Part shown: positions 547 through 35,648 of the stretch, piece by piece
Layout: every line of letters begins with the position of its first letter
Position numbering within the stretch: position 1 is the stretch's first letter
Source: Opitutia bacterium
Lineage (GTDB): Bacteria; Verrucomicrobiota; Verrucomicrobiia; Opitutales; Opitutaceae
NCBI GenBank assembly: GCA_016217595.1
Contig: JACRHS010000021.1
Coordinates: forward strand, 124,001 to 188,000
Direction of reading: 5' to 3'
Length of the DNA: 64,000 bases
Made by a program: the position numbers and the translations under genes
The notes under the pieces: model-generated
Databases searched by the model: none
Told to the model about the DNA's origin: nothing
What the model saw: the letters and a program-made list of their open reading frames with translations, nothing else

Positions 547-3029
547 ATAGAACGACCATCGACTACGGCATCGACCTCGGCACCACCAACAGCAGCATCG
601 CCCTCGCCTCAGGCACCGACACCGAGGTGATCCGCAACGCGCTCGACGCCGAGCTCACCCCCTCGGCCGTGCACATCAACGCCGCCGGCGCCCTCTGGGT
701 CGGCCAGCACGCCCGCGCCCGCCTCGTCGACGAACGCGCCGCCGGGCAGGTCGCCGTCGAGTTCAAGCGCCGCATCGGCACCGGCTACGAGTACACTTTC
801 GCGCCCTCCGGCCGGAAAATGCTCCCCGAGGCGCTTTCCGCCGAGGTGTTGAAATCGCTGCGCGCCGATGTCGCCCGCGGCAAGGGCGAGGAGATCGCCG
901 CCATCGTCATCACCGTCCCCGCCGCCTTCGAGCTGCACCAATGCGAGGCGACCAAACGCGCCGCCGATCTCGCCGGCTTCTCCCACGCCGCGCTGCTCCA
1001 GGAGCCGGTCGCCGCCGCGCTCGCCTACGGCTACCAGAAAATCGACGCCCGCGCCTGCTGGCTCGTGTTCGACTTCGGCGGCGGCACGTTCGACGCCGCC
1101 CTCGTCTCCTCGCGCGACGGCGCCATGCACGTCATCAACCACGGCGGCGACAGCTTCCTCGGCGGCGCCGACATCGATCTGGCCATCGTGCAACACCTGC
1201 TCGTGCCGCGCATCCACCGCGATCTGCGCGCGCCGGATTTCCGGCTCGGCGATCCGCGTTACACCCACGACCTGCTCCGCCTGAAGGCCGCCGCCGAGAC
1301 CGCCAAGATCGAGCTCGCGCAAAAATCCCAGGCCCATCTCGAAGTTGTCCTCGGCTCCATCTCCCCCCGGCCGGTGACACTCGAAGCCACGCTCACCCAG
1401 GCCGAAGTCGCGCGCCTCGCCGAGCCCATCGCCGTCAAAGCCGCCGACATCGCCCTGCGCGTCCTTCGCGAGAAAAACCTCGCGCCCGCCGCCGTGGCCA
1501 AACTGCTCTTTGTCGGCGGCCCCACGCTCGCGCCCTGGTTTCGCGACGTCGTCCAAGACCGGCTCGGCATCGCGGCCGACCACACCATCGACCCGCTCAC
1601 CGCCGTCGCGCGCGGCGCGGCGATTTTTGCCAGCACGCAACCCATGCCGCGGCCGGCCGTCGCGCCCGCCCCAGCGCCCGCGTCGGAAAGAGGTTTCACC
1701 ATCGAGATCCTGGCCAAGCGCGTGGGCTCCGACCTCACACCGCTCGTCAGCGGCCGGGTGCTCCCGCCCGCCGGCCAGTCGCTCGCCGGCTACACCATCG
1801 AGTTCATCAACCCCGCGACCAAGTGGCGCAGCGGCCGCCACGAAATCCGCCCGGGGGGCGCCTTCCTGCTCACCCTGCACGCCACACCCGCCGCGCCCAA
1901 CCGTTGCCAGCTGGAACTCCGCACGCCCGCCGGCGCCCTCTGTGCCACCACGCCCGATCATTTCGATTACACGCTCGGCGTCGTCATCGAGGAGCAGCCG
2001 ATCATCAACACTCTCGGCGTCGCCACCGCCGACAACCGCGTGGGGCTCCATTTCACCAAGGGCCAGCCGCTCCCGGCGCGCAGCACCCGCACTTACCGCA
2101 CCTCGCGCGAACTGCTCCGCGGCGACACCTCTGACGCGCTCCGCATCCCCATCATCGAAGGCAACCGCCCGCTGGCCGACCGCAATTTCCTGATCGGCAT
2201 GCTCCTGATCCGCGCCGCCAACCTCCAACGCGACCTCCCGCTCGGGAGCGAAATCGAGGTGACGTTGCGCATGGACACCTCCCGGCTGCTCACCGTCCAG
2301 GCTTACGTGCCGCTCATCGACGCCGAGTTTCCCGCCACGCTGGAGCTCGGCGGCAAAGTTCGCCAACCCGACCTCTCCATCCTGCGCCAGGAACTCGCCC
2401 GCGAGCAAAACCGTTTCGCCGCCCTGACTCTGCCCGCCGACTTGTCCGACGAGATCCAGGCCGCGGGCGCCACCATCGAAAGCCTCCACGCCCAACTCAG
2501 CCAGACGCTCCTCGGCGGCGCCGCCGACTTCGACACGTTGCTCCGCGCCGAACGCGATCTGATGGAGCTCAAGGATCGCGTGGACGCCTTCGCCACGCTC
2601 CTCGCCTGGCCCGTCGCCGCCCAGGAGGCGGAAAGCTGGCTGCATCACTTCGACCTCATCATCGAAAACCACGGCACCGACGAAGACCGCGTGCGCGCCA
2701 TCTCGCTGCGCGCCCAGACCCGCGTTTTCCTGATGGAGAAAAATCTCGACCGGCTCCGCCGCAAAACCGCCGAACTCTCCGACGCCTACGCGGCCATCGC
2801 GCAACGCGAGCCCTCGTTCTGGACCGACCATCTCGAAATTCTCGCCCAACGCCTGCCCCAGATGCGCGACCAGCCCAAGGCCGGCCTCCTGCTCAAACGC
2901 GGCCGGCACGCCGCCGCCACCGCGCAGCTCGAAACCGTCAAAGAAGTCGTGTTCCAACTCCAGGAGCTGCTGCCCCCGCCCGTCGCCCAGCCCGCCGCGC
3001 TCGGCTACGGTTCCAACCTCGTGCACTGA
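543..3029 (+). CDS. Hsp70-family (DnaK-like) chaperone with divergent C-terminal half
   Basis: 828 residues. The actin-like ATPase domain occupies about residues 1-385: phosphate-1 loop IDLGTTNSS near residues 9-17, phosphate-2 loop FDFGGGTFDAAL near 175-187, and adenosine-binding LLFVGGPTLAPWF near 321. The part after about residue 385 does not look like the usual beta-sandwich substrate domain plus EEVD-type tail. It is an extended module ending in probable helices, and the protein is about 190 residues longer than DnaK. It is therefore a specialised Hsp70-like protein rather than the housekeeping dnaK. It is coupled to an upstream GrpE-like gene (4-base overlap) and followed 8 bases later by a small membrane protein. 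Its client is unknown. Confidence 0.88.
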   Translation: MNRTTIDYGIDLGTTNSSIALASGTDTEVIRNALDAELTPSAVHINAAGALWVGQHARARLVDERAAGQVAVEFKRRIGTGYEYTFAPSGRKMLPEALSAEVLKSLRADVARGKGEEIAAIVITVPAAFELHQCEATKRAADLAGFSHAALLQEPVAAALAYGYQKIDARACWLVFDFGGGTFDAALVSSRDGAMHVINHGGDSFLGGADIDLAIVQHLLVPRIHRDLRAPDFRLGDPRYTHDLLRLKAAAETAKIELAQKSQAHLEVVLGSISPRPVTLEATLTQAEVARLAEPIAVKAADIALRVLREKNLAPAAVAKLLFVGGPTLAPWFRDVVQDRLGIAADHTIDPLTAVARGAAIFASTQPMPRPAVAPAPAPASERGFTIEILAKRVGSDLTPLVSGRVLPPAGQSLAGYTIEFINPATKWRSGRHEIRPGGAFLLTLHATPAAPNRCQLELRTPAGALCATTPDHFDYTLGVVIEEQPIINTLGVATADNRVGLHFTKGQPLPARSTRTYRTSRELLRGDTSDALRIPIIEGNRPLADRNFLIGMLLIRAANLQRDLPLGSEIEVTLRMDTSRLLTVQAYVPLIDAEFPATLELGGKVRQPDLSILRQELAREQNRFAALTLPADLSDEIQAAGATIESLHAQLSQTLLGGAADFDTLLRAERDLMELKDRVDAFATLLAWPVAAQEAESWLHHFDLIIENHGTDEDRVRAISLRAQTRVFLMEKNLDRLRRKTAELSDAYAAIAQREPSFWTDHLEILAQRLPQMRDQPKAGLLLKRGRHAAATAQLETVKEVVFQLQELLPPPVAQPAALGYGSNLVH

Positions 3030-3037
3030 CACCCGCC

Positions 3038-3562
3038 ATGTCCGCCCGCGCCCCCGCCATCGGCACCGCCCTCCGTCTCGCCAAAGCGCACGACCTCGTC
3101 CGACGCGGCCACCACAAAGCCGCCCGCGCGCTCGTGGCCCCCGACGGCCGCCCGCCGGAAAACGACACGGAACTGCACGCACTCGCCGCCATCGCGACTC
3201 ACGCCGGCGACTACACGGAGGCCTTGTCGCTCTGGCAACTCCTCCGCCAACGCCAGCCGCGACACCCCGAAGCCGCGCGCATGATCGCCGCCATCGAGTG
3301 CTGGCAAACTCGCCCGTCGTGGTACCGCTACGTGCCCGCCAGCGCCGCCGCGCTCGCCGGACTCCTGCTGTGCGTGATTCTATACGTCAGCCTCTCCTCC
3401 ACGCCGACGCGCCCGGCAGCAATAAACGCGACCTCGCCCCGCACCGCACCGGCGCCCGCCGGAAACCCCGCCCTCGCGCCCGCCCAACTCACCGAGCCCC
3501 CCGCCATCCGCCTGCCCGCCGCCACAAGCCACCCCAAAAACAAACCCCGCGCCACGCCCTGA
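3038..3562 (+). CDS. Small TPR-like membrane protein of the Hsp70 operon
   Basis: 174 residues, starting at ATG 8 bases after the Hsp70 stop. The N-terminal ~85 residues are helical and resemble one or two TPR units (alternating helices ending in a stretch like LRQRQPRHPEAARMIAAIE). One membrane segment follows (about residues 95-118, rich in Ala, Leu, Val). The C-terminal ~55 residues are a Pro/Ala/Thr-rich tail, probably outside the cytoplasmic face. The gene is not recognised as a named family. Its position suggests it anchors or adapts the Hsp70-like protein at the membrane, which is inference only. Confidence 0.6.
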   Translation: MSARAPAIGTALRLAKAHDLVRRGHHKAARALVAPDGRPPENDTELHALAAIATHAGDYTEALSLWQLLRQRQPRHPEAARMIAAIECWQTRPSWYRYVPASAAALAGLLLCVILYVSLSSTPTRPAAINATSPRTAPAPAGNPALAPAQLTEPPAIRLPAATSHPKNKPRATP

Positions 3563-3797
3563 CCCAAAGCTCCCGCAGTTCGCCATCATATTAAGCCGCG
3601 CGCATTCCCTGCATTTATTGAAATTGCTAATTATTGATCTACTTTAATATAAAGAATGGCACGCAAGCCTACAGTCACGAGTCAAAACCTGACATCCTCC
3701 GCTCGGCCGCGCGCGTCTGCCAGATGCTCGTCCGCCCGGCCGCAGAGGCAAAACCGTAGCCGCAGAGTTTCGGCCTGGGCTATATAGACTGCGTGAA

Positions 3798-3851
3798 GGT
3801 GGGGCGGGCTTTACGCCCGCCAAAACCGGCGGGGATAAACCCCGCCCCACC
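3798..3851. repeat. REP-like palindrome, family R2, copy 1
   Basis: Two G/C hairpins back to back, GGCGGGC-tttac-GCCCGCC and GGCGGGG-ataaa-CCCCGCC, with outer ends GGTGGGGCGGG and CCCGCCCCACC that are themselves complementary. A second copy lies in inverted orientation at 48642-48693. The element sits in a gene-free stretch (3563-3903) whose first half is AT-rich (about 3590-3660); no other feature is visible there. Confidence 0.8.
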
Positions 3852-3903
3852 GCCGGGCATCACGGCCGGTCCCACTCCGTAATGAGCAGGTGAGTTTGGA
3901 AAA

Positions 3904-4152
3904 CTATGGCTCCTGCTTCACCAACCATTTGCGCAACCGGTCAAAAACCTCGGTCAAGGTGGCCTCTTTTACCAGCTCAGGCTCCTTGCCATTTTGCCGC
4001 AGCCGGAACCGCCGTTCACCCCACAAGCCCGGAGCGTCAATCAGCTCGACTTTGAGCGCCTTGCCCGTCCTTTTATCTTTGATCGAGATGCGAAACCGTG
4101 CCGGAGATCGCCCCATGAGCGAAACCAAAAAATTACCCCTCAAAAATAGCAA
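3904..4152 (-). CDS. Small basic protein, unknown function
   Basis: Up to 82 residues from a TTG at 4152; an ATG at 4116 would give a 70-residue protein and may be the true start. The composition is protein-like and charged (for example KDKRTGKALKVELIDAPG and VFDRLRKWLVKQ), with an apparent beta-rich first half and a C-terminal amphipathic helix. Its 5' end overlaps a putative attC site (4147-4221), so it would be a reverse-oriented cassette gene. GC content is lower than in chromosomal neighbours. The plus-strand ORF over the same bases looks like a shadow. No family recognised. Confidence 0.5.
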   Translation of the reverse strand: MLFLRGNFLVSLMGRSPARFRISIKDKRTGKALKVELIDAPGLWGERRFRLRQNGKEPELVKEATLTEVFDRLRKWLVKQEP

Positions 4153-4221
4153 CCCATTATCTTGCTTTCATATCCAGCGCTACCCGTTAAAACGCGGTAG
4201 GTGCGAATAACACTGTTGGGC
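4147..4221 (+). other. Putative integron attC site 1
   Basis: R' box GTTGGGC at 4215-4221 fits GTTRRRY. A left box TAGCAAC at 4147-4153 pairs through AAC/GTT. Inner pairings are TTAT with ATAA and CTACC (4180s) with GGTAG (4196-4200). Length 75 bp is in the usual attC range. The L''/L' pairing is imperfect, making this the weakest of the three short sites. Confidence 0.42.
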
Positions 4222-4235
4222 AAAAATACCCCGTC

Positions 4236-4580
4236 GTGATTTCCCAAAAGAAAGCGGACCAGCTTGAGCGCAGTTACCGCGCCATCCTCTACCGGCGACC
4301 CATTGGAATATTCTCAGTCTTGATGCTGATCGGCGTCTGCATCTTCAGTCTTGGGCTGATTCTCTCGGCATCGAAGGTTCATTTCCCATTCTATTCGCTC
4401 TACTGCATCGCATTTTCCCTGCTGATCATAGCCATTTCTTTTCATTGGTTGCTTCAGGCGGTTGCACTCCTGAAGAAGAAAGATTGGTCAGGCGTTTTCA
4501 TGGTGTGCCTGGGTTTGGGTGCAACCTACTTCGGAGCTCTTTTGCTCAGCACTTGTTTCCCCTTGGTCTCGAGTCCATGA
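4236..4580 (+). CDS. Small three-helix membrane protein (cassette gene)
   Basis: 114 residues from a GTG start 14 bases after the R' box of attC site 1. There is a short charged N-terminus (SQKKADQLERSYRAILYRR) and then three hydrophobic segments at about residues 24-46, 52-78 and 85-108. No catalytic motif is visible and no family is recognised. The stop at 4580 lies 7 bases before the left box of attC site 2, the normal spacing for a one-gene integron cassette. Small membrane proteins of unknown role are common in environmental cassettes. Confidence 0.6.
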   Translation: MISQKKADQLERSYRAILYRRPIGIFSVLMLIGVCIFSLGLILSASKVHFPFYSLYCIAFSLLIIAISFHWLLQAVALLKKKDWSGVFMVCLGLGATYFGALLLSTCFPLVSSP

Positions 4581-4587
4581 AGAAAGA

Positions 4588-4647
4588 GCCCAACCAGATG
4601 CCAGTGCCAATGTCGGGGCTGCGCCCCGCCATGGCACATCGTTAACG
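4588..4647 (+). other. Putative integron attC site 2 (best-formed)
   Basis: Left box GCCCAAC at 4588-4594 matches RYYYAAC; right box GTTAACG at 4641-4647 is a degenerate GTTRRRY. Between them GATG pairs with CATC, GTGCCAATG pairs with CATGGCAC leaving one unpaired A (the extrahelical base expected of attC), and GGGGC-tgc-GCCCC forms the terminal hairpin. Length is 60 bp and the site lies directly between two small ORFs. Confidence 0.72.
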
Positions 4648-4677
4648 ATCGGCAGAACAAACATTCGGTCCAATCCC

Positions 4678-4935
4678 ATGAAGATAAAATATTGGCTCTC
4701 CCTTGTGGTATGTCTGGCAATGTGGGCATATTTTCGGCGCGAACACCCATTCACCGCCAAGACCTGGGCATTTCTTATCATTGCGCATTTGCCGGCACTG
4801 ATCGGGTTACTCGCCCTCGAGAGAAAGAAGACCAATCTTCATCCAATTCTTTGTTTTTTGATCATTTGGATCGGAGGTTTCGTTTTCGTTGGCGTCTTTG
4901 GAAAGCTAATGGGCCTCGGCACGCCATCGTCATGA
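4678..4935 (+). CDS. Small membrane protein (cassette gene)
   Basis: 85 residues beginning MKIKYWLSLVV at ATG 4678. A longer in-frame ORF exists upstream, but it would run through attC site 2 and lacks protein-like composition, so the internal ATG is preferred. Three hydrophobic segments are visible (about residues 5-16, 24-43 and 55-77) with a basic loop ERKKTN. No Shine-Dalgarno is evident, as is common for cassette genes. Function unknown. Confidence 0.58.
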   Translation: MKIKYWLSLVVCLAMWAYFRREHPFTAKTWAFLIIAHLPALIGLLALERKKTNLHPILCFLIIWIGGFVFVGVFGKLMGLGTPSS

Positions 4936-4961
4936 AGAAGAGGCCGATCTACATCGCTACA

Positions 4962-5035
4962 GCGACAACGCCTCTATGACCTCACCCCTAAATTCAGTAT
5001 CGCCGCTTCGGCGTGGCTGAGCTCAATCGTTAGGC
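4962..5035 (+). other. Putative integron attC site 3
   Basis: Right box GTTAGGC at 5029-5035 is a perfect GTTRRRY. The left side has GACAACG (4964-4970), where AACG pairs with CGTT. TGACCTCA pairs with TGAGCTCA with one mismatch, and the centre contains CGCCG-ctt-CGGCG. Length about 74 bp. The next ORF starts 2 bases after the right box, which is typical of cassettes. Confidence 0.6.
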
Positions 5036-5037
5036 AA

Positions 5038-5235
5038 ATGAACTTCGTTCTAAACGCGCTACGACTCCGTCTGAAGCATACATGGCAGCGCATCACGCGT
5101 GGATATGGCGATGACGAGATCGATTGGGAGCTACGAGAAAAGCTCGCGAAAGAAGTGAAGGATGAGATGGAGGAAAAGTTCGGCCCTCAGTTGGACAAGC
5201 CGAGAGGGCCTGGCCGAGTATTGTTGTATTCTTAA
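5038..5235 (+). CDS. Small charged protein (cassette gene) ending inside a palindrome
   Basis: 65 residues from ATG 5038, immediately downstream of attC site 3. It is hydrophilic and probably helical, with an acidic/basic second half (ELREKLAKEVKDEMEEKFG). The last residues, ending GRVLLYS, are encoded by the left arm of the palindrome at 5213-5287, and the stop codon lies in the palindrome's loop. Membrane segments and known motifs are absent. Function unknown. Confidence 0.55.
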   Translation: MNFVLNALRLRLKHTWQRITRGYGDDEIDWELREKLAKEVKDEMEEKFGPQLDKPRGPGRVLLYS

Positions 5236-5287
5236 GTAGTCCGAACGGTGATTACGCCCGCTCACTTGCCATACAACAATACTCGGC
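5213..5287. repeat. Long palindromic element, copy 1 (17-bp perfect arms)
   Basis: Arms GCCGAGTATTGTTGTAT (5213-5229) and ATACAACAATACTCGGC (5271-5287) are perfectly complementary and enclose a 41-base loop containing AGTCCGAACGGTGATTACG. The element sits between two convergent genes and could act as a two-way terminator. The loop is shared with copies at 5850-5924 and 8242-8282. Upstream CAAGCCGAGAGG and downstream CCCCTTTTGCC match the flanks of the other copies. Confidence 0.88.
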
Positions 5288-5690
5288 TAGACCCCTTTTG
5301 CCCCCCGTCTGAACTTAATCCTCCATGTGCAAACGCATTCCTGAATCGCATCGCATCTCCAAGCAGCTTTTCGTGATCATTCATCGCTTGGCCGGCCAGC
5401 AATCCACGCTTCTTCACGAGCCACATAACCAGACGGCGCTTGGCAGCGAACGAGCAAGTGTCGGTCTCAACGATCAACGACCTGAATTCTTCCGCCTTCT
5501 CGCCGCCCGTGGGAAAGAAGTAAAGCGTGATGATCTTCTCCAAGAGTCGCTCAATACTCTGAGCGCCCTCAATGACGTTGGCACGGTTCGCTCTCGCTGG
5601 TCCCGTGACTGCCGCTAGAACCTGAGCATCCAAAGGGGCATCAGATGCGGCAGCAACCTTGGTAGTATGTAAAGCAGGTAGGGTATACAT
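5262..5690 (-). CDS. HEPN-like small protein, unknown role
   Basis: 142 residues, mostly helical. Residues 117-122 read RNAFAH, the Rx4H-type motif (commonly RN-x3-H) of HEPN-domain proteins, in which Arg and His often form an RNase active site; this one lies at the C-terminal helix as expected. The rest (for example LLEKIITLYFFP and RLVMWLVKKRG) fits a helical bundle. The C-terminus RVLLYGK is encoded by the right arm of the palindrome shared with the convergent upstream gene. HEPN proteins are frequent in toxin-antitoxin and defence modules, but no antitoxin partner is recognisable here. The family call is tentative. Confidence 0.5.
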   Translation of the reverse strand: MYTLPALHTTKVAAASDAPLDAQVLAAVTGPARANRANVIEGAQSIERLLEKIITLYFFPTGGEKAEEFRSLIVETDTCSFAAKRRLVMWLVKKRGLLAGQAMNDHEKLLGDAMRFRNAFAHGGLSSDGGQKGSSRVLLYGK

Positions 5691-5719
5691 AGGATTTCTT
5701 GGCTAGACACTATAGCTGC

Positions 5720-5872
5720 GTGAAGCCGAGCGAAGGAGAAAAAGGTGCTGGCCCCCGGGAGCGTGGATTGCTCGCGCAAAGCGAGCCGAGCCACAAGATG
5801 GAGGCGTCAGCCAAAACCACCGACAAAGGTGCCAAGCCGAAGGGGCCTGGCCGAGTATTGTTGTATTCTTAA
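5720..5872 (+). CDS. Possible 50-residue ORF ending in palindrome copy 2
   Basis: GTG at 5720 (or ATG at 5798, 24 residues) opens a short Lys/Glu/Gly/Pro-rich frame with a segment EASAKTTDKGAKPKG and ending GPGRVLLYS. That ending is almost the same as the C-terminus of the 65-residue protein at 5038-5235, because both are encoded by the same repeat. There is no ribosome-binding site and no fold expected. It may be a by-product of the repeat rather than a gene. The rest of the 5691-6062 gap holds palindrome copy 2 and the leader of the next gene. Confidence 0.2.
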   Translation: MKPSEGEKGAGPRERGLLAQSEPSHKMEASAKTTDKGAKPKGPGRVLLYS

Positions 5873-5924
5873 TCAGTCCAAACAGTGATTACACCCACGC
5901 ACCTGCCATACAACCATACTCGGC
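5850..5924. repeat. Long palindromic element, copy 2
   Basis: Arms GCCGAGTATTGTTGTAT (5850-5866) and ATACAACCATACTCGGC (5908-5924) differ from perfect pairing at one base; the 41-base loop (5867-5907) contains CAGTCCAAACAGTGATTAC. Flanks GCCAAGCCGAAGG (5831-5843) and CCCTTTGTGCCC match copy 3. GTTAGCT at 5945-5951 resembles an attC right box, and ACAAAGG at 5823-5829 can pair with CCTTTGT at 5931-5937, so the whole may be a very long attC. Confidence 0.85.
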
Positions 5925-6062
5925 AGCCCCCCTTTGTGCCCTACGTTAGCTGCACGAAGGGTCGTACGGGCGATATGACTGCCTTTGGAAGGGCGCACTG
6001 AGGCGCGCGGCCTACGATACTTGTGGGCTCGCCCTGGCACCGCGCGCCCTTAGGAGAATCGC

Positions 6063-8207
6063 ATGCCAAACCAGTCCGCGAGCATCTGGGAAACGTTATG
6101 CGAAACCTTCGATGAGAAGTTGCCACGGCGGACCGCCGTCGCGCTCAAGCCGACCGATTCGACCATTCTCTACGCCTATCCGGCCAGCCTCGGGAAGATC
6201 GGCTGGTTTTTCGATGATCGCATCCAGTCGGGCTACGACGAGACGGTCGCTTTCGAGTGTTACCTCGGGCCGTGGCTGAGCCGGGGTGTCGCCCCGCAAC
6301 CCGTCGCGCATTCCAGCTTTGTCTGGGCCACGCAGGAGTATCGTCCCGACTTGGTGCAACGGCGGGCGCTGTACTCCGACCACGGACTGATCGTGCAGGA
6401 ACGTTTCGGGCGCGCCGTGGAAGGAGCGTTCACCTGGCAATTCGAGTTTGGCAACCGGGCGCTTCAAGTCTGTGCCCGCAGCCTTTTCGTGGTCTTGAAA
6501 GCGCGCCGTGGCTTGGGCGGGATACGGCGCGAGGGCGATTGTTTCGTGGGTAAGGAAGTCGCGTTGACGGCGGCCGCCCGGACGTGGGGTGCCTACGACC
6601 ATCTCGAAAACGTCGAGCGCGATATCATGGCGGGCCAGCTCTCCGGCCGGGCCGACGGCGATCGCTATTTGATTCTGGAGGTGCCGCTGAGCGTGCCGCC
6701 CCAAGGTCGGCAGGATTTCGCATTAGGCCTGGCCTTCGGCGACGCCGGTGCCGCCACCCGCGCCCGCGAAGTGCCGGAACTCGCCGCCCCGATTCGCGAG
6801 CGGTGGGATGCCTGGCTCCAGTCGTTGCCGGCGGCGGAGTTTCGCAGTCCGGAGGAGGCGTTGGCGTACTATAAATGCTGGTGGATCGTGCGGCTGAATT
6901 ACTACACCAGCCCGCGATTCGGGCACATGGTGTGCGAGGCGTTGCCCGTGTATCGCGGCTACTGGCTGTGGGGCTTGGACGCGTCGGAGTGGCATTCGGA
7001 TCAGGATACGCATCAAACCTCAGTGCACATCCGCCAGGCGTTGGAGCTCTTCCTCGCGCACCAACGTGCCGACGGGTATGTGACGCACGCGATGTATCTC
7101 GACGAGGAAAAGCTCGGTGAGCGCTGGAGCCAGCGCGACCTCACACAGACGCCGCATATTCCGTGGGTGGCCTTGCGCTATGCCGAATGCACGGGCGATC
7201 ACTCGGCGCTGGCCCGCTGGTACCCGCAGCTGGTGCGGTTCTACGATTACCTTTGCCGCACCCGCGATCAGGCGTTTCGCAACCTGCACTTGTGGGCAAT
7301 CCTGTCCTCGTTCGATACCGGGCTCGATACGACGGCGGCGTTTCAGAAAGTCACGTATGGCGACGCGGACGGGAAGGAAGCCTATTGCTACCCGGCGATC
7401 TTCGCCGCCGAACGCTGCCGGTACGAACAAGCGTTGGCGCGCATGGCCGAGCTGCTCGGCACGGGCGAACAGGCGCGCTGGCTGGCCGCCGCCGAGCAAA
7501 CGCGACAAGCCATGGACGCGGTGCTCTGGGATACCCATCGCAACTGGTACGGCGTGTTGCACGCCGACGGCACGCTGGACACTCGTGTCGGCGTCGATGG
7601 GCTTTTCCCGCTGGCCTATGGCCTGGTCGGACCGGAGCGGGCCGCCGCCGCGCGGGAGAACGTTCACGCCTTGATCGGCCACTACGGCATTCATACCGTG
7701 GCGCCCGGGGAACGCGGTTACGAAGCGCATCACTATTGGCGCGGTCCGGCATGGCCGAAATCGTGCGCGATGGGACTTGTCGCGGCGCGTCGGTATTACC
7801 CGGAGTTGGTGGAGCCGGCGCTCGCGAGCACGCTGCGGATGCTGCTGCGCTGGCCGAGCGTGTGGGAATGCTTGAACGCCGAGACCGGCGACGTGGCGCG
7901 GGGCGACCAAGGGCTGTGCGCAACCCCGGTCATCGCGTCCAACGTCGGGGCGGGAGAGGCATTGGGTGCGCTGCTGACCGTTCGCGGCGTGGACATGCTG
8001 GCCTTCGACGGCACGCTGCGCCTCGCCCCGGTGCGGAATTTTCACTGGGCCGGCCTGCGACTCGATCTGCAACAGCGCGATGGAGCCTGGCAAGTGACGG
8101 TGCGCGCCGCCGAAAAAACCGCCGGCACGCTCCGCCTGCGCACAGTCTCGGGTCAGCTCGTGGCGCTGGAAGTGATCGCCGGGCGCAGCTACACGGTATC
8201 GGAATAA
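6063..8207 (+). CDS. GH63-like (alpha/alpha)6 glycoside hydrolase
   Basis: 714 residues with a well-placed AGGAG 8 bases before the ATG. An N-terminal beta-rich region (to about residue 265) precedes an (alpha/alpha)6-barrel. The barrel carries WGLDASEWHSDQD near residue 305 (candidate acid Asp), WAILSSFDTGLD near 413 and YWRGPAWPKSCAMG near 560, features seen in GH63 and related inverting alpha-glucosidases and mannosylglycerate hydrolases. No signal peptide, so it is probably cytoplasmic and acts on small alpha-glycosides. The substrate cannot be read from sequence. It stands alone, bracketed by palindrome copies 2 and 3, though its codon use is like the chromosome. Confidence 0.8.
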   Translation: MPNQSASIWETLCETFDEKLPRRTAVALKPTDSTILYAYPASLGKIGWFFDDRIQSGYDETVAFECYLGPWLSRGVAPQPVAHSSFVWATQEYRPDLVQRRALYSDHGLIVQERFGRAVEGAFTWQFEFGNRALQVCARSLFVVLKARRGLGGIRREGDCFVGKEVALTAAARTWGAYDHLENVERDIMAGQLSGRADGDRYLILEVPLSVPPQGRQDFALGLAFGDAGAATRAREVPELAAPIRERWDAWLQSLPAAEFRSPEEALAYYKCWWIVRLNYYTSPRFGHMVCEALPVYRGYWLWGLDASEWHSDQDTHQTSVHIRQALELFLAHQRADGYVTHAMYLDEEKLGERWSQRDLTQTPHIPWVALRYAECTGDHSALARWYPQLVRFYDYLCRTRDQAFRNLHLWAILSSFDTGLDTTAAFQKVTYGDADGKEAYCYPAIFAAERCRYEQALARMAELLGTGEQARWLAAAEQTRQAMDAVLWDTHRNWYGVLHADGTLDTRVGVDGLFPLAYGLVGPERAAAARENVHALIGHYGIHTVAPGERGYEAHHYWRGPAWPKSCAMGLVAARRYYPELVEPALASTLRMLLRWPSVWECLNAETGDVARGDQGLCATPVIASNVGAGEALGALLTVRGVDMLAFDGTLRLAPVRNFHWAGLRLDLQQRDGAWQVTVRAAEKTAGTLRLRTVSGQLVALEVIAGRSYTVSE

Positions 8208-20803: not shown

Positions 20804-21655
20804 ATGGCCGCATCCAGCGCGCTCACCCGCGAAAAAATCTTTCAGATTGCCCGCACCCTCCCGGCCGCGCCGCGAGTGCTCGTGGGCCTGCGCGAATTGC
20901 TGCAGGACATCAACGTCGGCCTCGACGAAATCGCCAACCTCGTCAAACGCGACGCCGCCCTCGCCGCCCGCATCATCCGCGTCAGCAACAGCGTCATGTA
21001 CAGCAGCGGCCTGCGCATCGGCTCCATCGAGGAAGCCGTCAACCGCGTCGGGTTTAGCGAAGTGTACCGGCTGGTGGGCTTCATGACCGGGCACATGCTG
21101 GTCGACCGTCCGCTCAAATTTTACAACGTCGATACGACCCCGCTGCGCGAGCACATGCTGTTCACCGCGCTCGCCTGCGAGGCGCTCGCCGAGGAGAGCG
21201 GCTACGATACGCGCAACGCCTACACCGCCGGCCTGCTGCGCGCCCTCGGCATGCTGGTGCTCGACCGCGTCGCCGCGCTCCTGCCCGAGATGACGACCTA
21301 CGATCACGGACGTTTCGGCGGCTATCCGAGCTGGGAAGGCGTGGTTTTCTGTCTCAGCAACACCGAAGTGGCGGCGTTGATTCTGACCGACTGGCGCTTC
21401 CCGCCCGAGGTCGTCGAAGGCGTGCGCGAACAATATTTGCTGCAACCAGCCGACTACGACAACCGGCTGGCGTGCCTGATCAATATCGCTGGCGCGGTGG
21501 TGGCCGAGGCGGGACACACGCTGCCGGGCGACCGCCGTTATTGGGAACTGACCCCGCGCAAATTAGAAGCCGCAGGTCTGACGGAGGACCAAGTTTTGCA
21601 GATCGGAATACGCACCCGCACGGCCTTCGAACGCTTGCGCGGCTCGATTCGGTGA
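20804..21655 (+). CDS. HDOD-domain protein (paralogue of the HDOD-sigma fusion)
   Basis: 283 residues from ATG 20804. An HDOD domain fills about residues 8-215, with the typical LVKRDAALAARIIRVSNS block near residue 46 and EEAVNRVG near 75. HDOD proteins resemble HD-domain hydrolases but often lack the metal-binding residues and act as regulatory scaffolds. The protein is roughly 60% identical by eye to residues 1-285 of the fusion protein at 28167 but ends after the HDOD region. The two paralogues flank the island that carries RAYT, hamAB and the nuclease. Confidence 0.85.
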   Translation: MAASSALTREKIFQIARTLPAAPRVLVGLRELLQDINVGLDEIANLVKRDAALAARIIRVSNSVMYSSGLRIGSIEEAVNRVGFSEVYRLVGFMTGHMLVDRPLKFYNVDTTPLREHMLFTALACEALAEESGYDTRNAYTAGLLRALGMLVLDRVAALLPEMTTYDHGRFGGYPSWEGVVFCLSNTEVAALILTDWRFPPEVVEGVREQYLLQPADYDNRLACLINIAGAVVAEAGHTLPGDRRYWELTPRKLEAAGLTEDQVLQIGIRTRTAFERLRGSIR

Positions 21656-21829: not shown

Positions 21830-22312
21830 ATGCGCGATTACCCCCTGCGCTTGCACCACAAGACTCCCGGCTGGGTGAAGGCCGGCGCGTTGTTCCATAT
21901 ACGCATCCGAGCTGCGGCTGATCAGAAGCCTGTGCTGACCACGCCAGCACTTGCTGCAGAGCTGCTCGCCGCCGCCCGCCAGTATCACGAGCAGGGCCGC
22001 TGGTGCTGCGAACTCTTCCTCCTCATGCCCGACCATGTGCATGCGCTGCTGGCCTTCCCGCGCGACGCCGACATGTCGGTTAGCGTGCGCAATTGGAAAC
22101 GCGTCACCGCCCGGATGCACGGCGTTGTCTGGCAACCCAACTACTTCGATCATCGCATCCGCAACGACCAAGAAGCCAAGGCGACATGGGCGTACATCCG
22201 CCGCAACCCGCTCGTGAAACACCTGTGCGCCACCGAAGAAGACTGGCCGCATTGGTGGAGCGCGTTGTCCCCAACGCGCTTGTTTGGCTCAGTCCTCGGA
22301 AAAGCGCCTTGA
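21830..22312 (+). CDS. REP-associated tyrosine transposase (RAYT, Y1/HUH family)
   Basis: 160 residues from ATG 21830. MPDHVHALL holds the HUH-type metal-binding pair (His69, His71), and the candidate nucleophile Tyr105 lies in NYFDHRIRN, followed by the YIRRNPLVK helix found in RAYTs. RAYTs are single-domain Y1 transposases that bind and cut REP hairpins in single-stranded DNA. The gene fits exactly between REP copies A and B. About the last 18 residues and the stop codon are encoded by copy B itself, so the C-terminus may have been supplied when the repeat was joined. HUH and Tyr residues look intact, so activity is plausible. Confidence 0.92.
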   Translation: MRDYPLRLHHKTPGWVKAGALFHIRIRAAADQKPVLTTPALAAELLAAARQYHEQGRWCCELFLLMPDHVHALLAFPRDADMSVSVRNWKRVTARMHGVVWQPNYFDHRIRNDQEAKATWAYIRRNPLVKHLCATEEDWPHWWSALSPTRLFGSVLGKAP

Positions 22313-26803: not shown

Positions 26804-27844
26804 TCACTCCTCCTTTGCGCCGCCGTCGTAGCGGATGGCGTGGCCGGCGGAGAGCAGGGCGTTGTTGAGGAAGACGGTGCCTGCGGCGGCGGGCGCCATG
26901 CTGTCAGCTTTAGGCTTACTGCCTGCCGCCTCGCCGATGAACACATCGGCGAGATACCGATCGTATTTGTCGGGCTTCGTGGTGCAGACGATCACTTCGT
27001 CGCCGATGCGGACGAGGTTTTCGACAAAGGCTTTGGCGGCGCGGCCGGCGGCGGTGGCGAGCTCGGGGCAGTCGAGTCCGCGGAGGCGCAGCCGGAGGTC
27101 GCGCGTGAAGCCGGGGGCGAGCGCGAGCGTGATGTCGAGCGTGTCGCCATCGATGATTTTGCGCAGTGTCGCCCGGTAGGTGAAGAGCTGGTCCGGGGTG
27201 GCGTCGGCGATCTTTTGCACGCCGTCCTCCGCCCACCGCACGATGTCGCCGGCCTTGAGCCTCGCCGGGGTCGCGGCGGGCACGGCGGCATAGTTTTTGA
27301 ATCCGAGGTCGATGCCCGGGCCGTCGCGGCGCTCGACGATGCGGCGCAGGCCGGGGACGCCGCAGCGGGGCTGGAGCAGCTCGGCGGTGGCGGCGGGCGC
27401 GGGGTCGTCCGCGGCGAGGGCGACGGCGTTGTAGGCGCGGACGCGGGTTTCGAGTTCGGGCGAGGTCCACTCCCGCCTGATCGCCTCGGCTTCCAGCGCC
27501 TTTCGTTGCGCAGGGTCGGCGACCTGGATCAGGAGCTTGTAGTGGGACCAGACCAATTTGGCGCGGTCGCGCCAAATTGGATAGCAACGGTAGAACTGGA
27601 CGCATTCCTGCAACGTCCGCCGGCTGATGCCGGTATCCTCGGCGAGTTTGGCGTAGGTCTTGGCGCCGTAGTCGGCGCGGTCGCGGAACAGGAGGACGTG
27701 CTCGTGGATGAGGCGGCCGGTCTCGTGGTAGGTCTCGAGCCACGCGCGATCGATGGCCCGGCGGCCTTGGACGACGACGGCGATCACCGCATCGCGCAGT
27801 TGCGCATAGGTCTTGGGGGTCGGGGCAGGCGCGGACAGGGGCAT
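26804..27844 (-). CDS. DUF1016 N-terminal domain fused to a staphylococcal-nuclease-like domain
   Basis: 346 residues from ATG 27844; an upstream in-frame extension crosses REP copy C and is rejected. Residues ~10-145 match the DUF1016/YhcG N-terminal domain: KTYAKLAEDTGISRRTLQE and later WSHYKLLIQVADPAQR. Residues ~225-325 form an SNase domain: KIIDGDTLD, then RLRGLDCPEL (Arg and Glu) and DKYDRYLADVF (second Arg), so the metal Asp and the Arg/Glu/Arg catalytic set are present. DUF1016 proteins normally carry a PDDEXK nuclease at the C-terminus, so this is an unusual pairing. No signal peptide. It is convergent with hamB, 45 bases apart, in the same island, so a defence role is likely but unproven. 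Confidence 0.8.
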   Translation of the reverse strand: MPLSAPAPTPKTYAQLRDAVIAVVVQGRRAIDRAWLETYHETGRLIHEHVLLFRDRADYGAKTYAKLAEDTGISRRTLQECVQFYRCYPIWRDRAKLVWSHYKLLIQVADPAQRKALEAEAIRREWTSPELETRVRAYNAVALAADDPAPAATAELLQPRCGVPGLRRIVERRDGPGIDLGFKNYAAVPAATPARLKAGDIVRWAEDGVQKIADATPDQLFTYRATLRKIIDGDTLDITLALAPGFTRDLRLRLRGLDCPELATAAGRAAKAFVENLVRIGDEVIVCTTKPDKYDRYLADVFIGEAAGSKPKADSMAPAAAGTVFLNNALLSAGHAIRYDGGAKEE

Positions 27845-27969
27845 GGGGAGAGGGGTGGCGGCGAGTGGAACGGATGTTTGCGGTCCACGCGAGCGCGGAG
27901 GCGCAGTCCAGCTCGCGGGCAATATCCGGTAATCGACCAGCCGCGTCGCGGGTCCGGACGTTGCAAATG

Positions 27970-28044
27970 GGTGGAGCGCGTTGTCCCTAACGCGCTTGTT
28001 GGGCCCGGCCGACGGCAAAGCGTCTTGAGGACAAGTCGCGTCAC
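27970..28044 (+). repeat. REP element R1, copy C (diverged)
   Basis: 75 bp in the same orientation as copies A and B. It starts GGTGGAGCGCGTTGTCC, keeps CTTGAGGACAAGTCGCG near its end, and has several substitutions and small deletions between (for example CCTAACGCGC instead of CCCAACGCGC). It lies in the 322-base gap between the divergent nuclease and HDOD-sigma genes; no other feature is seen there. Confidence 0.88.
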
Positions 28045-28166
28045 GCCGATCGCTCACGCAACGCTTCGAGCACCATCATTTTCCTTCCCGCTCCCGCCCC
28101 GGGGTAAAGCCCCCGCTTCCCTGCGCTTGAGTGTGCGGCATTTCTGGCAATAGTCGCAGGCCTCGA

Positions 28167-29696
28167 ATGGCTGCGACCAGCGCCCTTACCCGCACCAGGA
28201 TCTTCGAGATCGCGCGAAGCCTGCCCCCCGGACCCCGGATTCTCGCCGGGTTGGGCAAGCTGCTGCAGGATGAGAAAACCGACGTCGAGGAAGTCGCCAC
28301 CCTGATCAAACGCGACGCCGCGCTCGCCGCCCACATCATCCGGATCAGCAACAGCGTTTATTACCATGGCAGCGCCGAGGCGCACATCGGTGACATCGAG
28401 GAGGCCGTCAACCGCGTCGGTCTGCGCGAGGTTTACCGGCTCGTCGGGCTCGTGACGTCCAGCCAGCTGGTCGACCGGCCGCTGCTCTATTACAGCGTGA
28501 AGGTGGAGCCGTTGCGCGATCACATGGTTTACACGGCGCTCGCCTGCGAGGCGCTCGCCGCCATCGCCGGGATCGATGGTCGCAACGCCTACACCGCGGG
28601 GCTCATGCGCACGCTCGGCATCCTCGTGCTCGACCGCGTGGCGATGTTGTTGGAGCCGGTGGAGCCGTTCCGGCCGGAGGTCTTCGGCGGGTTCATCCCC
28701 TGGGAGGGCCGCGTGTTCTGCCTGAGCAACTGCGAGGTGGCGGCGATGATCCTCCAGGAATGGCGCTTCCCGCCCGAGATCGTGGAAGCGGTGCGCGAGC
28801 ACTACGTTACCCGCGACGAGGACCACAACAACCGCCTCGCCTGCCTGCTCAACCTCGCCGGCGGAATCGTCGCCGCCGCCGGGCACGGGCTCCCGGGCGA
28901 GGCCGCCTACTGGGAGAGCACGCCGCGCAAGCTCGCCGCCCTCGGGCTCACCGCCAAACAGATCGCGCAGGCGGCCGAGCGCACCCGCGCGGCGTTCCAA
29001 GCCTTTTCCCAGCACAGTGAAACGTCCCCCGGCGGCCCGGCGCGCGCCCCCGCGGAAGATTCCTGCAACTCGGAGGCGACGCCGGGTGTTGTTGGCACGA
29101 ACGATGACATCCACGTGCAAACAGACACCGCGGAGCTGAGCCCTCCGGAAGAATTTCCCGCCTTCATGCGCCGCTACCAAGACATGGTCTACGCCACCGC
29201 CGCGCGCCTCCTGGGCAACGAGACGCAGGCGGAGGACATTGCGCAGGAAGTCTTCCTCAAAGCTTACGAGCGCTGGACCGACCTGCGCACCAGCCCCGCC
29301 GCCGGCGGCTGGTTGAAAACCGTCGCGACCAACATGTCGCTCAACCACCTCCAGCGTTACCGCAAACGCTGGCGCTTCTTCTCGGAAATGACGCGGCGCG
29401 ACGACGACGCCGGTGCAGACGACCAGCCCGAGATCGAGTTTGCCGCGCCCGACCAGTTCTTCTCCGGGATGGACCAATCCGAGCGCCGCGCCTGGGTGGA
29501 CGAAGCGTTGCAAGAACTCCCCGAACATCAGCGCGTGCCGCTCGTGCTCTACCACTACGAAGACCTGCCGTACGACGAGATCGCCGCCAAGCTCGGCGTC
29601 TCCCTCGCCAAAGTGAAAACCGACATCCTGCGCGGCCGCGCCACCCTTGCGCGCCTGCTCACCCGCGGCGCCGGCCGCGAACAACTCGCCCGTTGA
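28167..29696 (+). CDS. HDOD domain fused to an ECF-type sigma factor
   Basis: 509 residues from ATG 28167, chosen by homology with the paralogue at 20804. Residues ~8-285 are HDOD (LIKRDAALAAHIIRISNS). A Ser/Pro/Glu-rich linker of about 40 residues follows. Sigma region 2 starts near residue 329 (FMRRYQDMVYATAARLLGN, then AEDIAQEVFLKAYERW), and region 4 near 448-500 (LPEHQRVPLVLYHYEDLPY, then IAAKLGVSLAKVKTDILRGR). No stop or frameshift separates the halves; the only internal start nearby is an unsupported GTG near 29117. It is followed 22 bases later by a membrane protein that may be its anti-sigma factor. The HDOD part may control sigma activity. Confidence 0.88.
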   Translation: MAATSALTRTRIFEIARSLPPGPRILAGLGKLLQDEKTDVEEVATLIKRDAALAAHIIRISNSVYYHGSAEAHIGDIEEAVNRVGLREVYRLVGLVTSSQLVDRPLLYYSVKVEPLRDHMVYTALACEALAAIAGIDGRNAYTAGLMRTLGILVLDRVAMLLEPVEPFRPEVFGGFIPWEGRVFCLSNCEVAAMILQEWRFPPEIVEAVREHYVTRDEDHNNRLACLLNLAGGIVAAAGHGLPGEAAYWESTPRKLAALGLTAKQIAQAAERTRAAFQAFSQHSETSPGGPARAPAEDSCNSEATPGVVGTNDDIHVQTDTAELSPPEEFPAFMRRYQDMVYATAARLLGNETQAEDIAQEVFLKAYERWTDLRTSPAAGGWLKTVATNMSLNHLQRYRKRWRFFSEMTRRDDDAGADDQPEIEFAAPDQFFSGMDQSERRAWVDEALQELPEHQRVPLVLYHYEDLPYDEIAAKLGVSLAKVKTDILRGRATLARLLTRGAGREQLAR

Positions 29697-29718
29697 AACC
29701 CGCCAATCCCTTTCTGCC

Positions 29719-30168
29719 ATGACGCCTCGCGACGACCAAAAATTGGAGCAATTCATCCACCAAGCGCTGCGCTCCGTCCCGCCGCGCCCCGCGCCGCGCT
29801 CGCTTGAAACGCGAGTGCTGGCCGCCATCGCCGCGCGCCAGGCCCTGCCGTGGTGGCGGCAGTCGTTCGCCCGCTGGCCGCTGCCGGCCCGCGCCGCCTT
29901 CCTCGCGCTGGCGCTCGCGCTCGTCGCCGCCATCGCGTGGCTCAGCCTCGCCGGCTCCGAACTGGCGCTGCCCGCGATCCGCGAAATGCTGGCGCCGCTC
30001 GCACACCTGCGCGTGGCGCTCGAAGCCGTGGCCGACATCTTCGCGCTGCTTTTCCGCAGCATTCCCACGCTCTGGCTTTACAGCGCGGCGGCGACTGTCG
30101 CCGCGTTGTACGCCGCCCTCTTCGGACTCGGCGCCACGGCTTACCGCACTCTCTTCGTCAATCGTTGA
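29719..30168 (+). CDS. Membrane protein, candidate anti-sigma factor of the HDOD-sigma operon
   Basis: 149 residues from ATG 29719. A soluble N-terminus (~50 residues: DDQKLEQFIHQALRSVPPRP, then RSLETRVLAAI) resembles the cytosolic part of anti-sigma proteins but lacks the HxxxCxxC zinc motif. Two hydrophobic segments follow, at about residues 58-80 and 112-138. It sits 22 bases after the sigma fusion and 12 bases before the bactofilin-like gene, indicating one operon. Anti-sigma function is inferred from position and topology only. Confidence 0.55.
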   Translation: MTPRDDQKLEQFIHQALRSVPPRPAPRSLETRVLAAIAARQALPWWRQSFARWPLPARAAFLALALALVAAIAWLSLAGSELALPAIREMLAPLAHLRVALEAVADIFALLFRSIPTLWLYSAAATVAALYAALFGLGATAYRTLFVNR

Positions 30169-30180
30169 ACCTTTTATCGC

Positions 30181-32055
30181 ATGAACTCCTCGGCTCGTGA
30201 AATTTTCCGCCGCGCATTTATCGCGCTCCTCCTCGGCCTGGCCCTGACGGCCTTCGCCCAGGAACCCGCCACGCCACCAGCGGCACCGCCCGCCGCTGCG
30301 GCCCCGGAGGCCGCCAAGCCCGTCGAGCCGGCCAAGGCCGACGCGCCCGCCGCCGTCGTCGAAAAACCGGCCCCAGCGCCCGCCGTTGCCCCCGCGCCGA
30401 CACCGGCGTCCGCGCCCGTTGAGAAGCCGGCCGAGCTGCGCCGCCTCGACACGGCCACGCCCGCCGTCGAGCCCGCGAAAGTCGAGACGCCGGAACAGCC
30501 CGCCACCGTGGCCCCCGCGACCGAGAAGCAGAAACCCGAGGCCACGGCCCCCGCCGACAAGAAGGGGAAGAAACCCTCGAAGAAAGTCACCATCCGCTCG
30601 CCCCAGCTGCATAAGTTGAACGAGTTCCCGATGGGCGACCACGTCGTGCCCGCGGGCGCCAAGTCAGGCGGCGAAGTCGTTTCTGTCTTCGGCAACTCGG
30701 TGGTCGAGGGCGAGACCAACGGCGAAGTCGTCTCCGTCTTCGGCAACACGCTCATCAACGGCCGGGCGGGCGGCGAAGCCGTCGCGGTGTTCGGCAATCT
30801 CACCATCAACGGGCACGTCAACGGCGAGGCCGTCGCGGTGTTTGGCAACATCACGCTGGGCGAAAATGCCGTGGTCGACGGCGAAGTCGTCGCGGTGTTC
30901 GGCCGGCTCCAGCGGCACCCGCACGCCGAGATCCGCGGCAGCGTGCAGGAGATCATGCCGCACGTGCTCATCCCCGGCCTCGGGTCGGTCGGCACGTGGT
31001 TCAAAAGCTGTCTGATGCTGGGCCGGCCGCTGGCCTTCGAATCCGGTCTCGGCTGGGTGTGGCTGCTCGCGGGAGCGCATCTGTTCCTCTATCTGCTGTT
31101 CGCACTGGTTTTCGGCCGCGGGCTGGTGAAATGCGCCGAGACGCTTGAGCAACACCCGGGCATGTCGATTGTGACGGCGCTGCTCGCGCTCTTGCTCACG
31201 CCGCTGGTGTTCCTGCTGCTGGCGATCACGGGCGTGGGTTTGCTGCTGATCCCGTTCCTCGGCGCGGGCCTGTTTTTCCTCGGGCTGTTCAGCCGCGCGG
31301 CGATGCACGCGTGGGTCGGCCGGCTCTTCACGCGGTTTCTCCCGGGGCCGTTCGGACACGTCGCGTTCGCCGTGCTGCTCGGCGGCGTGGTCATCCTGTT
31401 GTTCTACTGCGTGCCGGTCATCGGCCTGCTGCTGCACTTCCTGATCGGCACCCTCGGCATGGGCATGACGATCTACGCGATCATCCTCAGCATGAAGAAG
31501 GACAAGCCCGCCGTCGCCGCGCGTCCGCCGGCCCCTGCGGTCGCCGCGATGGCGCCGCCCATGATTCCGGTCGTGGCGCCGATGAACGCCGGCGGCGAGA
31601 TGTCCGCCCAACCGTTCGCCGCGCCCGCGATGACGTTGCCCGCGCCGGTCTCGGTGGCGGCCAGCCTGCCACGCGCCGGATTCTGGCTGCGCATGGGCGC
31701 GCTGGCGATTGACCTGATTTTGTGCGGCGCCTTGCTGTCGCTCCTCTCGATCCCGCATCTGCGCACCGGCAGCGGCACGCTCCTGCTGCTCGCGGCCACC
31801 TACGGCGCCGTGCTCTGGAAACTGCGCGGCACCACCATCGGCGGCACGATCTGCAACCTGCGCATCGTGCGCCTCGACGATCAACCCGTCGACTGGACCA
31901 CGGCGATCGTGCGCGCGCTGGGCTGCTTCCTCTCGCTCATCGTCGCCGGCCTCGGCTTCATCTGGATCGCCATCGATAACGACAAGCAGGCGTGGCACGA
32001 CAAAATCGCCGGCACCGTCGGGGTGCGCCTGCCCAAGGGCACGCCGCTGGTCTGA
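30181..32055 (+). CDS. Bactofilin-like repeat / multispanning / RDD-domain membrane protein
   Basis: 624 residues. A signal peptide ends near FAQ (residue 27), followed by a long Pro/Ala/Lys-rich linker to about residue 150. Five repeats of G-E-[VA]-V-[SA]-V-F-G start near residues 164, 181, 198, 215 and 234 (spacing 17, 17, 17, 19), resembling the beta-solenoid turns of polymer-forming bactofilins. Four or five membrane segments (about 285-440) and a Pro/Ala linker precede a C-terminal RDD domain (about 500-610) with membrane segments and DNDKQAWHDKIAGT. It may be an envelope sensor or output of the HDOD-sigma operon; its exact role is unknown. Confidence 0.8.
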   Translation: MNSSAREIFRRAFIALLLGLALTAFAQEPATPPAAPPAAAAPEAAKPVEPAKADAPAAVVEKPAPAPAVAPAPTPASAPVEKPAELRRLDTATPAVEPAKVETPEQPATVAPATEKQKPEATAPADKKGKKPSKKVTIRSPQLHKLNEFPMGDHVVPAGAKSGGEVVSVFGNSVVEGETNGEVVSVFGNTLINGRAGGEAVAVFGNLTINGHVNGEAVAVFGNITLGENAVVDGEVVAVFGRLQRHPHAEIRGSVQEIMPHVLIPGLGSVGTWFKSCLMLGRPLAFESGLGWVWLLAGAHLFLYLLFALVFGRGLVKCAETLEQHPGMSIVTALLALLLTPLVFLLLAITGVGLLLIPFLGAGLFFLGLFSRAAMHAWVGRLFTRFLPGPFGHVAFAVLLGGVVILLFYCVPVIGLLLHFLIGTLGMGMTIYAIILSMKKDKPAVAARPPAPAVAAMAPPMIPVVAPMNAGGEMSAQPFAAPAMTLPAPVSVAASLPRAGFWLRMGALAIDLILCGALLSLLSIPHLRTGSGTLLLLAATYGAVLWKLRGTTIGGTICNLRIVRLDDQPVDWTTAIVRALGCFLSLIVAGLGFIWIAIDNDKQAWHDKIAGTVGVRLPKGTPLV

Positions 32056-34690: not shown

Positions 34691-34977
34691 AGCGTGTCTT
34701 CCTGTCCGAGCTTGGTGCCTTCCGCCGCGACCACGCTCCACTGCGCGAGCGCCTCGTCGTTGGCGCGGTGCTCCCGCCAGGAATTGACCGCCAGAGTGAG
34801 GGCGAGACAGGCCATCACCGCGCCAAAGCCGACGAGGACGGCGGTCTGCGGCGACAACTCATCGCGGGCGGCGGCGACGCGGGCCAGCACGCGCTGCGCC
34901 AGATGGGGACGCAAGGCGGCGGTGCCCTGCTTGCGGATGTCGGGCCAAAGGGCGGAGAGTTCAGGTTCGTTTTGCAT
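34687..34977 (-). CDS. Small membrane protein, candidate anti-sigma factor
   Basis: 96 residues from ATG 34977, inside the end of the sigma gene (17-base overlap), and overlapping the next gene by 4 bases. A helical N-terminus (~45 residues) precedes one membrane segment (about residues 50-68, LVGFGAVMACLALTLAV) and a short periplasmic tail. Size, topology and coupling to an ECF sigma gene fit an anti-sigma factor, but no zinc-binding motif is present. The functional label is inferred from context. Confidence 0.55.
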   Translation of the reverse strand: MQNEPELSALWPDIRKQGTAALRPHLAQRVLARVAAARDELSPQTAVLVGFGAVMACLALTLAVNSWREHRANDEALAQWSVVAAEGTKLGQEDTL

Positions 34978-35506
34978 AAAGATCTCGGAGCCGCTCACGC
35001 GCGCGGTGCAATCGTGTTTTGATGGTGGTGGTGGTCGTGCCGGTGGCGCGCGCCATCTCGGCCAGACTCAGCCCTTCCTGGGCCATGAGCAAAAGTGTGC
35101 GATCGCGCGCAGGCAAGCGTTGGAGCAACGCCAGTAACGCTTCGATGCGCTCGCGTTTGTCGGTATCTACGAAGACCGGCGGATCGTCGGTCGCGGGGTC
35201 GAAAAAGGTGAACATGCGCCGCCAGCGTTCGCGGCGGGTGTGGTCGATGCAGGCGTTGCGGGCGAGGCGGAACAGCCAGGGCTCGAACAACGCCGGGTCG
35301 AGCAGGCGCGGCAGCCCCTTTAACATCTTGATCAACACGTCCTGGCAGAGGTCGTCGACCGGGGCGGCCCGTCCGAGCATGGCATAGACGAAGCCCGCCA
35401 ACCGCGCTTGATAAGCGACGATCAAAGCGTTCTGCGCCGACATATTGCCGGCCTGCGCGCGCCGCACGAGTTCGGGCAGCGCGGTGTCGTCGGCTTTGTC
35501 CTCCAT
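34961..35506 (-). CDS. ECF-type RNA polymerase sigma factor
   Basis: 181 residues from ATG 35506. Region 2 contains LVRRAQAGNMSAQNALIVAY and VDDLCQDVLIKMLKGL with FRLARNACIDHTRRERWRR; region 4 contains LLQRLPARDRTLLLMAQEGL and MARATGTTTTTIKTRLHRAR. It transcribes an operon with a small membrane protein, a Spy-like protein and a lipoprotein, so its regulon likely concerns the cell envelope or metals. It diverges from pdxH with 142 bases between starts, where its promoter should lie. Confidence 0.92.
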   Translation of the reverse strand: MEDKADDTALPELVRRAQAGNMSAQNALIVAYQARLAGFVYAMLGRAAPVDDLCQDVLIKMLKGLPRLLDPALFEPWLFRLARNACIDHTRRERWRRMFTFFDPATDDPPVFVDTDKRERIEALLALLQRLPARDRTLLLMAQEGLSLAEMARATGTTTTTIKTRLHRARERLRDLYAKRT

Positions 35507-35648
35507 GTGACGGGCGATACACTGCACGAGGGCAAGACGGATCAAAAGCCGGAAAGTTGCCCGATTCTGCGGCCCCCCAGGCCCCGGCAGCGACCGGTTC
35601 GCGATCTTTTTTTGACAGCGTCCGCCCCATGACGCACTGTGACGCACG

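Follow-up and report, generated by a model that had tools for sequence, protein, structure and literature searches.

The locus at positions 28167-29696 (plus strand) of the window, the 64,000-nt stretch of an Opitutia bacterium contig analyzed here, raises the question of whether an HDOD domain and an ECF sigma factor are produced as one polypeptide and, if so, what an HDOD domain would contribute to promoter selection. HDOD domains are described as widespread, with a mechanistic role that is not established, in PMC6543031. The original prediction of an uninterrupted 509-residue frame that joins a complete HDOD domain to sigma regions 2 and 4 agrees with the results of a Pfam search. The frame is open over 28131-29696, and initiation at the ATG at 28167 yields a 509-aa protein with a calculated mass of 56.4 kDa. 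The HDOD domain (PF08668, E 5e-33) spans residues 19-213 (28221-28805) and is full-length, covering profile positions 1-194 of 196, with 3m1t, 3p3q, 3ljx, 3i7a and 9qzk as its sequence-based relatives in the PDB. Sigma region 2 (PF04542 Sigma70_r2, E 3e-14) spans residues 334-400 (29166-29366) and sigma region 4 (PF08281 Sigma70_r4_2, E 3e-17) residues 442-494 (29490-29648), all three matches exceeding the curated Pfam cut-offs. The sigma half presents regions 2 and 4 with no region 3 and matches TIGR02937 with 88.9 bits (cut-off 42.9), as befits an ECF factor. An AlphaFold model of the fusion based on ten sequences did not reach a usable quality (pLDDT 44, pTM 0.26), an Rfam scan of 27900-30300 returned no match and no record in the plasmid collection covered 80% of the query.

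The window belongs to a draft genome of 3.59 Mb in 32 contigs with 68% completeness, and the fusion could in principle stem from a mistake in assembly or sequencing or from the loss of a stop codon. The survey of this architecture suggested alongside the original prediction was run over the genomes of the family and identified the HDOD domain and this ECF factor in a single stop-free frame in at least 7 of 252 Opitutaceae genomes among the matches listed, a count that is a lower bound because it considers only the best matches in each genome. The seven carriers (the window genome, G025, G006, G009, G163, G166 and G129) represent seven different genera, and one of them, G006, is a closed, single-contig chromosome of 5,957,605 bp, with the fusion at about C1:879470-881053 on the minus strand. 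That six other genomes also carry the fusion in frame rules out a sequencing error hiding a stop or frameshift in the linker, and makes the artifact reading scarcely credible in spite of the draft status of the window genome. No fusion was found among the matches listed for the three other genomes of the window's genus, and this absence, together with the rarity of the fusion, indicates that the arrangement is dispensable. Outside the family, no fusion was detected in a phylum sample (388 genomes, E<=1e-40) or in an order sample (177 genomes, E<=1e-50), at thresholds that would miss unrelated HDOD-sigma fusions.

An open frame by itself is weak evidence for a joint product in GC-rich DNA, since unfused loci also carry long open stretches. 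In several unfused loci, 150-320 codons ahead of the ECF gene are open, and in one case (L117, frame 2247-6854) a run of 1536 open codons extends through approximately 4 kb of upstream sequence and ends in the ECF factor of G214, probably by chance in GC-rich DNA. More informative is the behavior of the linker, which in the window comprises about 50 aa (29013-29162) and contains the ancestral ECF gene's promoter and leader. Across the seven fusions the linker ranges from 52 to 146 residues, the longest being that of L077 (146 aa), and none contains a stop; its segment between HDOD domain and promoter measures 19, 24, 25, 31, 37, 42 or 96 aa. Mean pairwise identity among the seven aligned fusions is 51% for the HDOD domain, 24% for the linker before the promoter, 43% for the promoter and leader and 72% for the ECF half. 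Each of the six changes in linker length is a multiple of three, as predicted by selection for a single polypeptide. Moreover, no stop codon terminates the HDOD part in any of the seven fusions, so that translation must run on into the sigma part. At four other loci (L074, L086, L107 and L122), the ECF match is preceded, at a distance of 219-485 nt, by the end of an HDOD gene from another lineage, and this gene does not share the open frame of the ECF factor. The joining of the HDOD domain and the ECF sigma factor in a single fusion polypeptide is hence well supported.

The sigma half of this polypeptide belongs to a locus that is ordinary in the Opitutaceae, and most of the loci examined have no joined HDOD domain. 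In 40 relatives, the gene order is the ECF factor, a small protein containing a hydrophobic segment, an RDD membrane protein and, often, PurE. The small protein of the window (149 aa, 29719-30168, plus strand) lies directly 3' of the ECF gene, as do its counterparts in all 40 relative loci compared. It matches no Pfam or NCBIfam model, and its position and hydrophobic segment suggest that it is a membrane anti-sigma factor. All four fusion loci tabulated in this respect (the window, L058, L061 and L077) have kept this putative anti-sigma gene. The conserved third gene (30181-32055, plus strand) encodes a membrane protein in which GEVVSVFGN-type segments recur and which carries an RDD domain at its C-terminus (Pfam RDD, 1.5e-18), and is likely to be a regulon member or effector of the locus. 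Of the 46 loci whose upstream sequence reaches 4.5 kb or more, 14 have an HDOD gene within 4.5 kb upstream on the ECF strand, five fusions included, and none has one on the opposite strand. A second ECF-type sigma factor is encoded in the window at 34961-35647 (minus strand), facing the fusion locus.

In unfused orthologues, the ECF gene is preceded, a few bases 5' of its start, by a conserved TTCTGCAACTTT - 12 or 13 nt - CGGTGTTCT arrangement, a motif layout corresponding to an ECF-dependent promoter and therefore probably indicative of autoregulation. The window carries a promoter-like element of this type, TGCAAC (29064-29069) and GGTGTT (29085-29090) separated by 15 nt, on the plus strand within the coding linker; its AAC-containing -35, GT-rich -10 and approximately 15-nt spacing upstream of its own gene are those of a candidate ECF-type promoter. 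Its location within an open reading frame follows from the fusion of the HDOD domain upstream. Using a PSSM trained on 49 unfused ECF orthologues, the window element scores 24.3, versus 8.0 (sd 7.2) for synonymous recodings of the linker. Out of 2000 recodings, the observed score was reached by 18 for the window, 8 for L058, 15 for L077, 0 for L104, 57 for L103, 106 for L105 and 348 for L061. Promoter retention is thus above synonymous expectation in most fusions (p <0.0005 to 0.17), with a combined p of ~5e-8 that treats related sequences as independent. In the window, third-position GC is 0.69 at the promoter stretch, versus 0.90 in the HDOD part and 0.86 in the ECF part. A search of the window genome for a wider regulon on the basis of the promoter pattern yielded only two further matches, explicable by chance. 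For one of these two (L145, G000:C28:238260-238286, minus strand), another HDOD gene match (C28:237263-237907) follows roughly 350 nt downstream, which may also be chance.

Start codons were assigned by regular expression and corrected by eye for L043, L049, L050 and L109. Where unfused ECF genes start with ATG or GTG, the window presents ACG (29097-29099), and the start has likewise been lost in four of the other six fusions; overall, five fusions have ACG or GCG at the ancestral position, and the other two have GTG. The ancestral start is missing from 5/7 fusions, compared with 1/35 unfused loci in fusion-free genera (p 1e-4, treating related sequences as independent), a loss that is expected if initiation moved upstream. 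Slightly downstream, an in-frame GTG (29115-29117) provides a candidate internal start for a free ECF factor of 193 aa and 22 kDa. A GTG occupies this position in all seven fusions, and in unfused loci devoid of the usual start codon a GTG or TTG is likewise kept there. Neither this GTG nor the ATG at 28167 is preceded by a visible Shine-Dalgarno sequence, and no sigma-70-type promoter was identified by consensus 5' of 28167. In L041, L068, L070, L073 and most other loci, the ATGAACGATGAACCTCCAGTGCAAAC start region immediately follows the -10 element and shows DNA-level conservation that extends to third codon positions, suggestive of constraint on the initiation region or of an mRNA that is leaderless or nearly so.

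These elements, judged from the nucleotide sequence, indicate that the cell may make a short, free ECF factor from the GTG at 29115 in addition to the fusion. The original prediction had allowed for separate initiation near 29117, while missing both the internal promoter at 29064-29090 and the possible GTG start at 29115. Internal initiation remains a live proposal, given that promoter and the retained GTG, but not as a replacement for the fusion: with no stop codon of its own in the HDOD part, the short sigma product cannot substitute for the long one. A stronger version would hold that the short form made from the internal promoter and GTG is the working sigma factor, and would reduce the long protein to a minor or coupling product of little regulatory meaning. 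The retention of promoter and GTG, at start-less unfused loci as well in the case of the GTG or TTG, is in keeping with this version, as is the prevalence of relatives with no HDOD domain; yet it leaves unexplained why none of the seven fusions has an HDOD stop, why the frame survives large changes in linker length and why the ancestral start codon is missing in five of them, and we consider it rather unlikely.

The origin of the fused HDOD domain was addressed through its phylogeny. The window encodes an HDOD-only paralogue of 283 aa (20804-21655, plus strand), 7 kb upstream of the fusion and 62% identical to its HDOD half over 280 residues. A near paralogue had thus been correctly pointed out, but its designation as the likely ancestor goes further than the tree supports: the paralogue and one G002 HDOD form the sister group (support 96/83) of the fused HDOD domains, which makes the paralogue a close relative. 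The region between paralogue and fusion holds other genes. A REP-associated tyrosine transposase-like gene (21830-22312, plus strand; NCBIfam 77.8 bits, cut-off 80) adjoins the paralogue and is followed by a complete Hachiman anti-phage pair (22741-26758, plus strand; HamA PADLOC E 1e-110, HamB helicase E 0). A protein with a DUF1016 N-terminal domain and a staphylococcal-nuclease-like domain is encoded at 26804-28057 (minus strand), divergently from the fusion gene, and is possibly a further defense gene.

The seven fused HDOD domains constitute one clade (support 100/98). The ECF halves, on the other hand, form no clade and group mostly with unfused ECF factors of their own genus (the window with G002 and G003, G163 with g16, G166 with G171, G009 with G148), so that the ECF tree entails seven changes between fused and unfused states, six of them forced by strong branches. 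This combination implies either the transfer of one HDOD-linker module from genus to genus at this locus, or a single fusion in an ancestor followed by many losses. The conflict between both trees, illustrated by G025 and G166, which are neighbors in the ECF tree and apart in the HDOD tree, favors transfer between genera. Unfused members that do not have the usual ECF start occur in 4/6 fusion genera versus 1/22 others (p 0.003, using hand-corrected starts), and these start-less ECF genes look like a trace of former fusions. No HDOD remnants were found upstream of them, other than separate HDOD genes of other lineages.

A literature search found no published description of an HDOD-sigma fusion, as the original prediction had surmised, in open sources, although a mention in the full ECF reclassification or in subscription journals is possible. 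Two reviews of ECF factors with extensions (PMC8999054, PMC8103513) name SnoaL_2, TPR, WD40, YCII, anti-sigma and DUF2275 modules and do not mention HDOD; the latter describes N-terminal extensions as mechanistically unstudied. The fusion falls among ECF factors with regulatory extensions, with HDOD as a new extension. As in the one-component factors covered by those reviews (ECF41 with SnoaL_2, ECF42 with TPR, ECF238 CorE and ECF36 with an N-terminal TM-DUF2275), a sigma2-sigma4 core is combined with an extra domain proposed as control; the experimentally studied extensions described there are C-terminal, whereas the HDOD domain of the window is N-terminal. Unlike those factors, the HDOD-ECF protein is accompanied by a putative anti-sigma factor encoded in a gene of its own, and its coding sequence retains a promoter element. 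The order of promoter, ECF gene, membrane anti-sigma gene and target seen in classical autoregulated ECF operons is likewise conserved in the Opitutaceae, but in the seven fusion genomes the promoter element resides inside an open reading frame. The stand-alone HDOD proteins GsmR, HdpA and PSPTO_4229 belong to the same HDOD family and regulate motility or attachment, but have no sigma domain. A precedent in trans is provided by SadB of Pseudomonas fluorescens, a YbaK-like and HDOD protein that binds c-di-GMP and activates the ECF sigma gene algU, the binding domain not being settled in the part of PMC6543031 available; unlike the window protein, which has no YbaK domain, SadB is unfused and acts by raising algU transcription.

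Taking these observations together, we regard it as probable that the HDOD domain is a cis-acting, N-terminal regulator of a family-conserved ECF factor, with the internal promoter providing feedback that yields the short ECF form. Joined to the ECF N-terminus, the HDOD module would deliver its signal directly to the sigma factor. The long 56-kDa protein would be transcribed from a promoter upstream of 28167 and represent a basal form under HDOD control, on which the putative membrane anti-sigma factor encoded downstream would still act. When activated, the long form would fire the internal promoter, leading to production of the short ECF factor from the GTG at 29115, the anti-sigma factor and the RDD membrane protein, and the extra sigma factor would constitute positive feedback. 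The HDOD domain would most likely be a non-catalytic sensing or protein-binding domain that alters how available sigma region 2 is, and the SadB precedent makes c-di-GMP a reasonable first ligand candidate. The predicted HDOD-sigma system is hence real and recurrent as a fusion, but does not stand alone: it sits in a conserved sigma locus with its own putative membrane anti-sigma factor, so that the HDOD domain would be a second input. Instead of sensing a ligand, the HDOD domain could serve as a dimerization, localization or stability tether, or the long form could act as an anti-sigma decoy, a notion to which the long, variable linker and the dependence of PSPTO_4229 on a predicted protein-contact site (residues R84/R85; PMC11813219) lend themselves. 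Tethering and sensing would look alike in the sequence, and we deem this alternative improbable.

For the preferred reading of the HDOD domain as a regulator in cis, the consequence would be that an HDOD domain is wired to promoter selection and that sigma-dependent transcription would report the HDOD-sensed signal, affording a simple readout both for HDOD domains and for N-terminal ECF extensions. A cultured host is likely to be among the fusion carriers, which would make the fusion testable. The internal promoter, if active, would show an old autoregulation surviving gene fusion inside a coding sequence. As a more tentative extension, the locus could be a nested two-product gene, in which an HDOD-gated pilot sigma factor fires its own internal ECF promoter to generate an ungated short copy and the anti-sigma factor, the module having spread by recombination or being ancestral and lost many times. 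If true, sensor, switch and amplifier would be combined within a single gene in these Opitutaceae.
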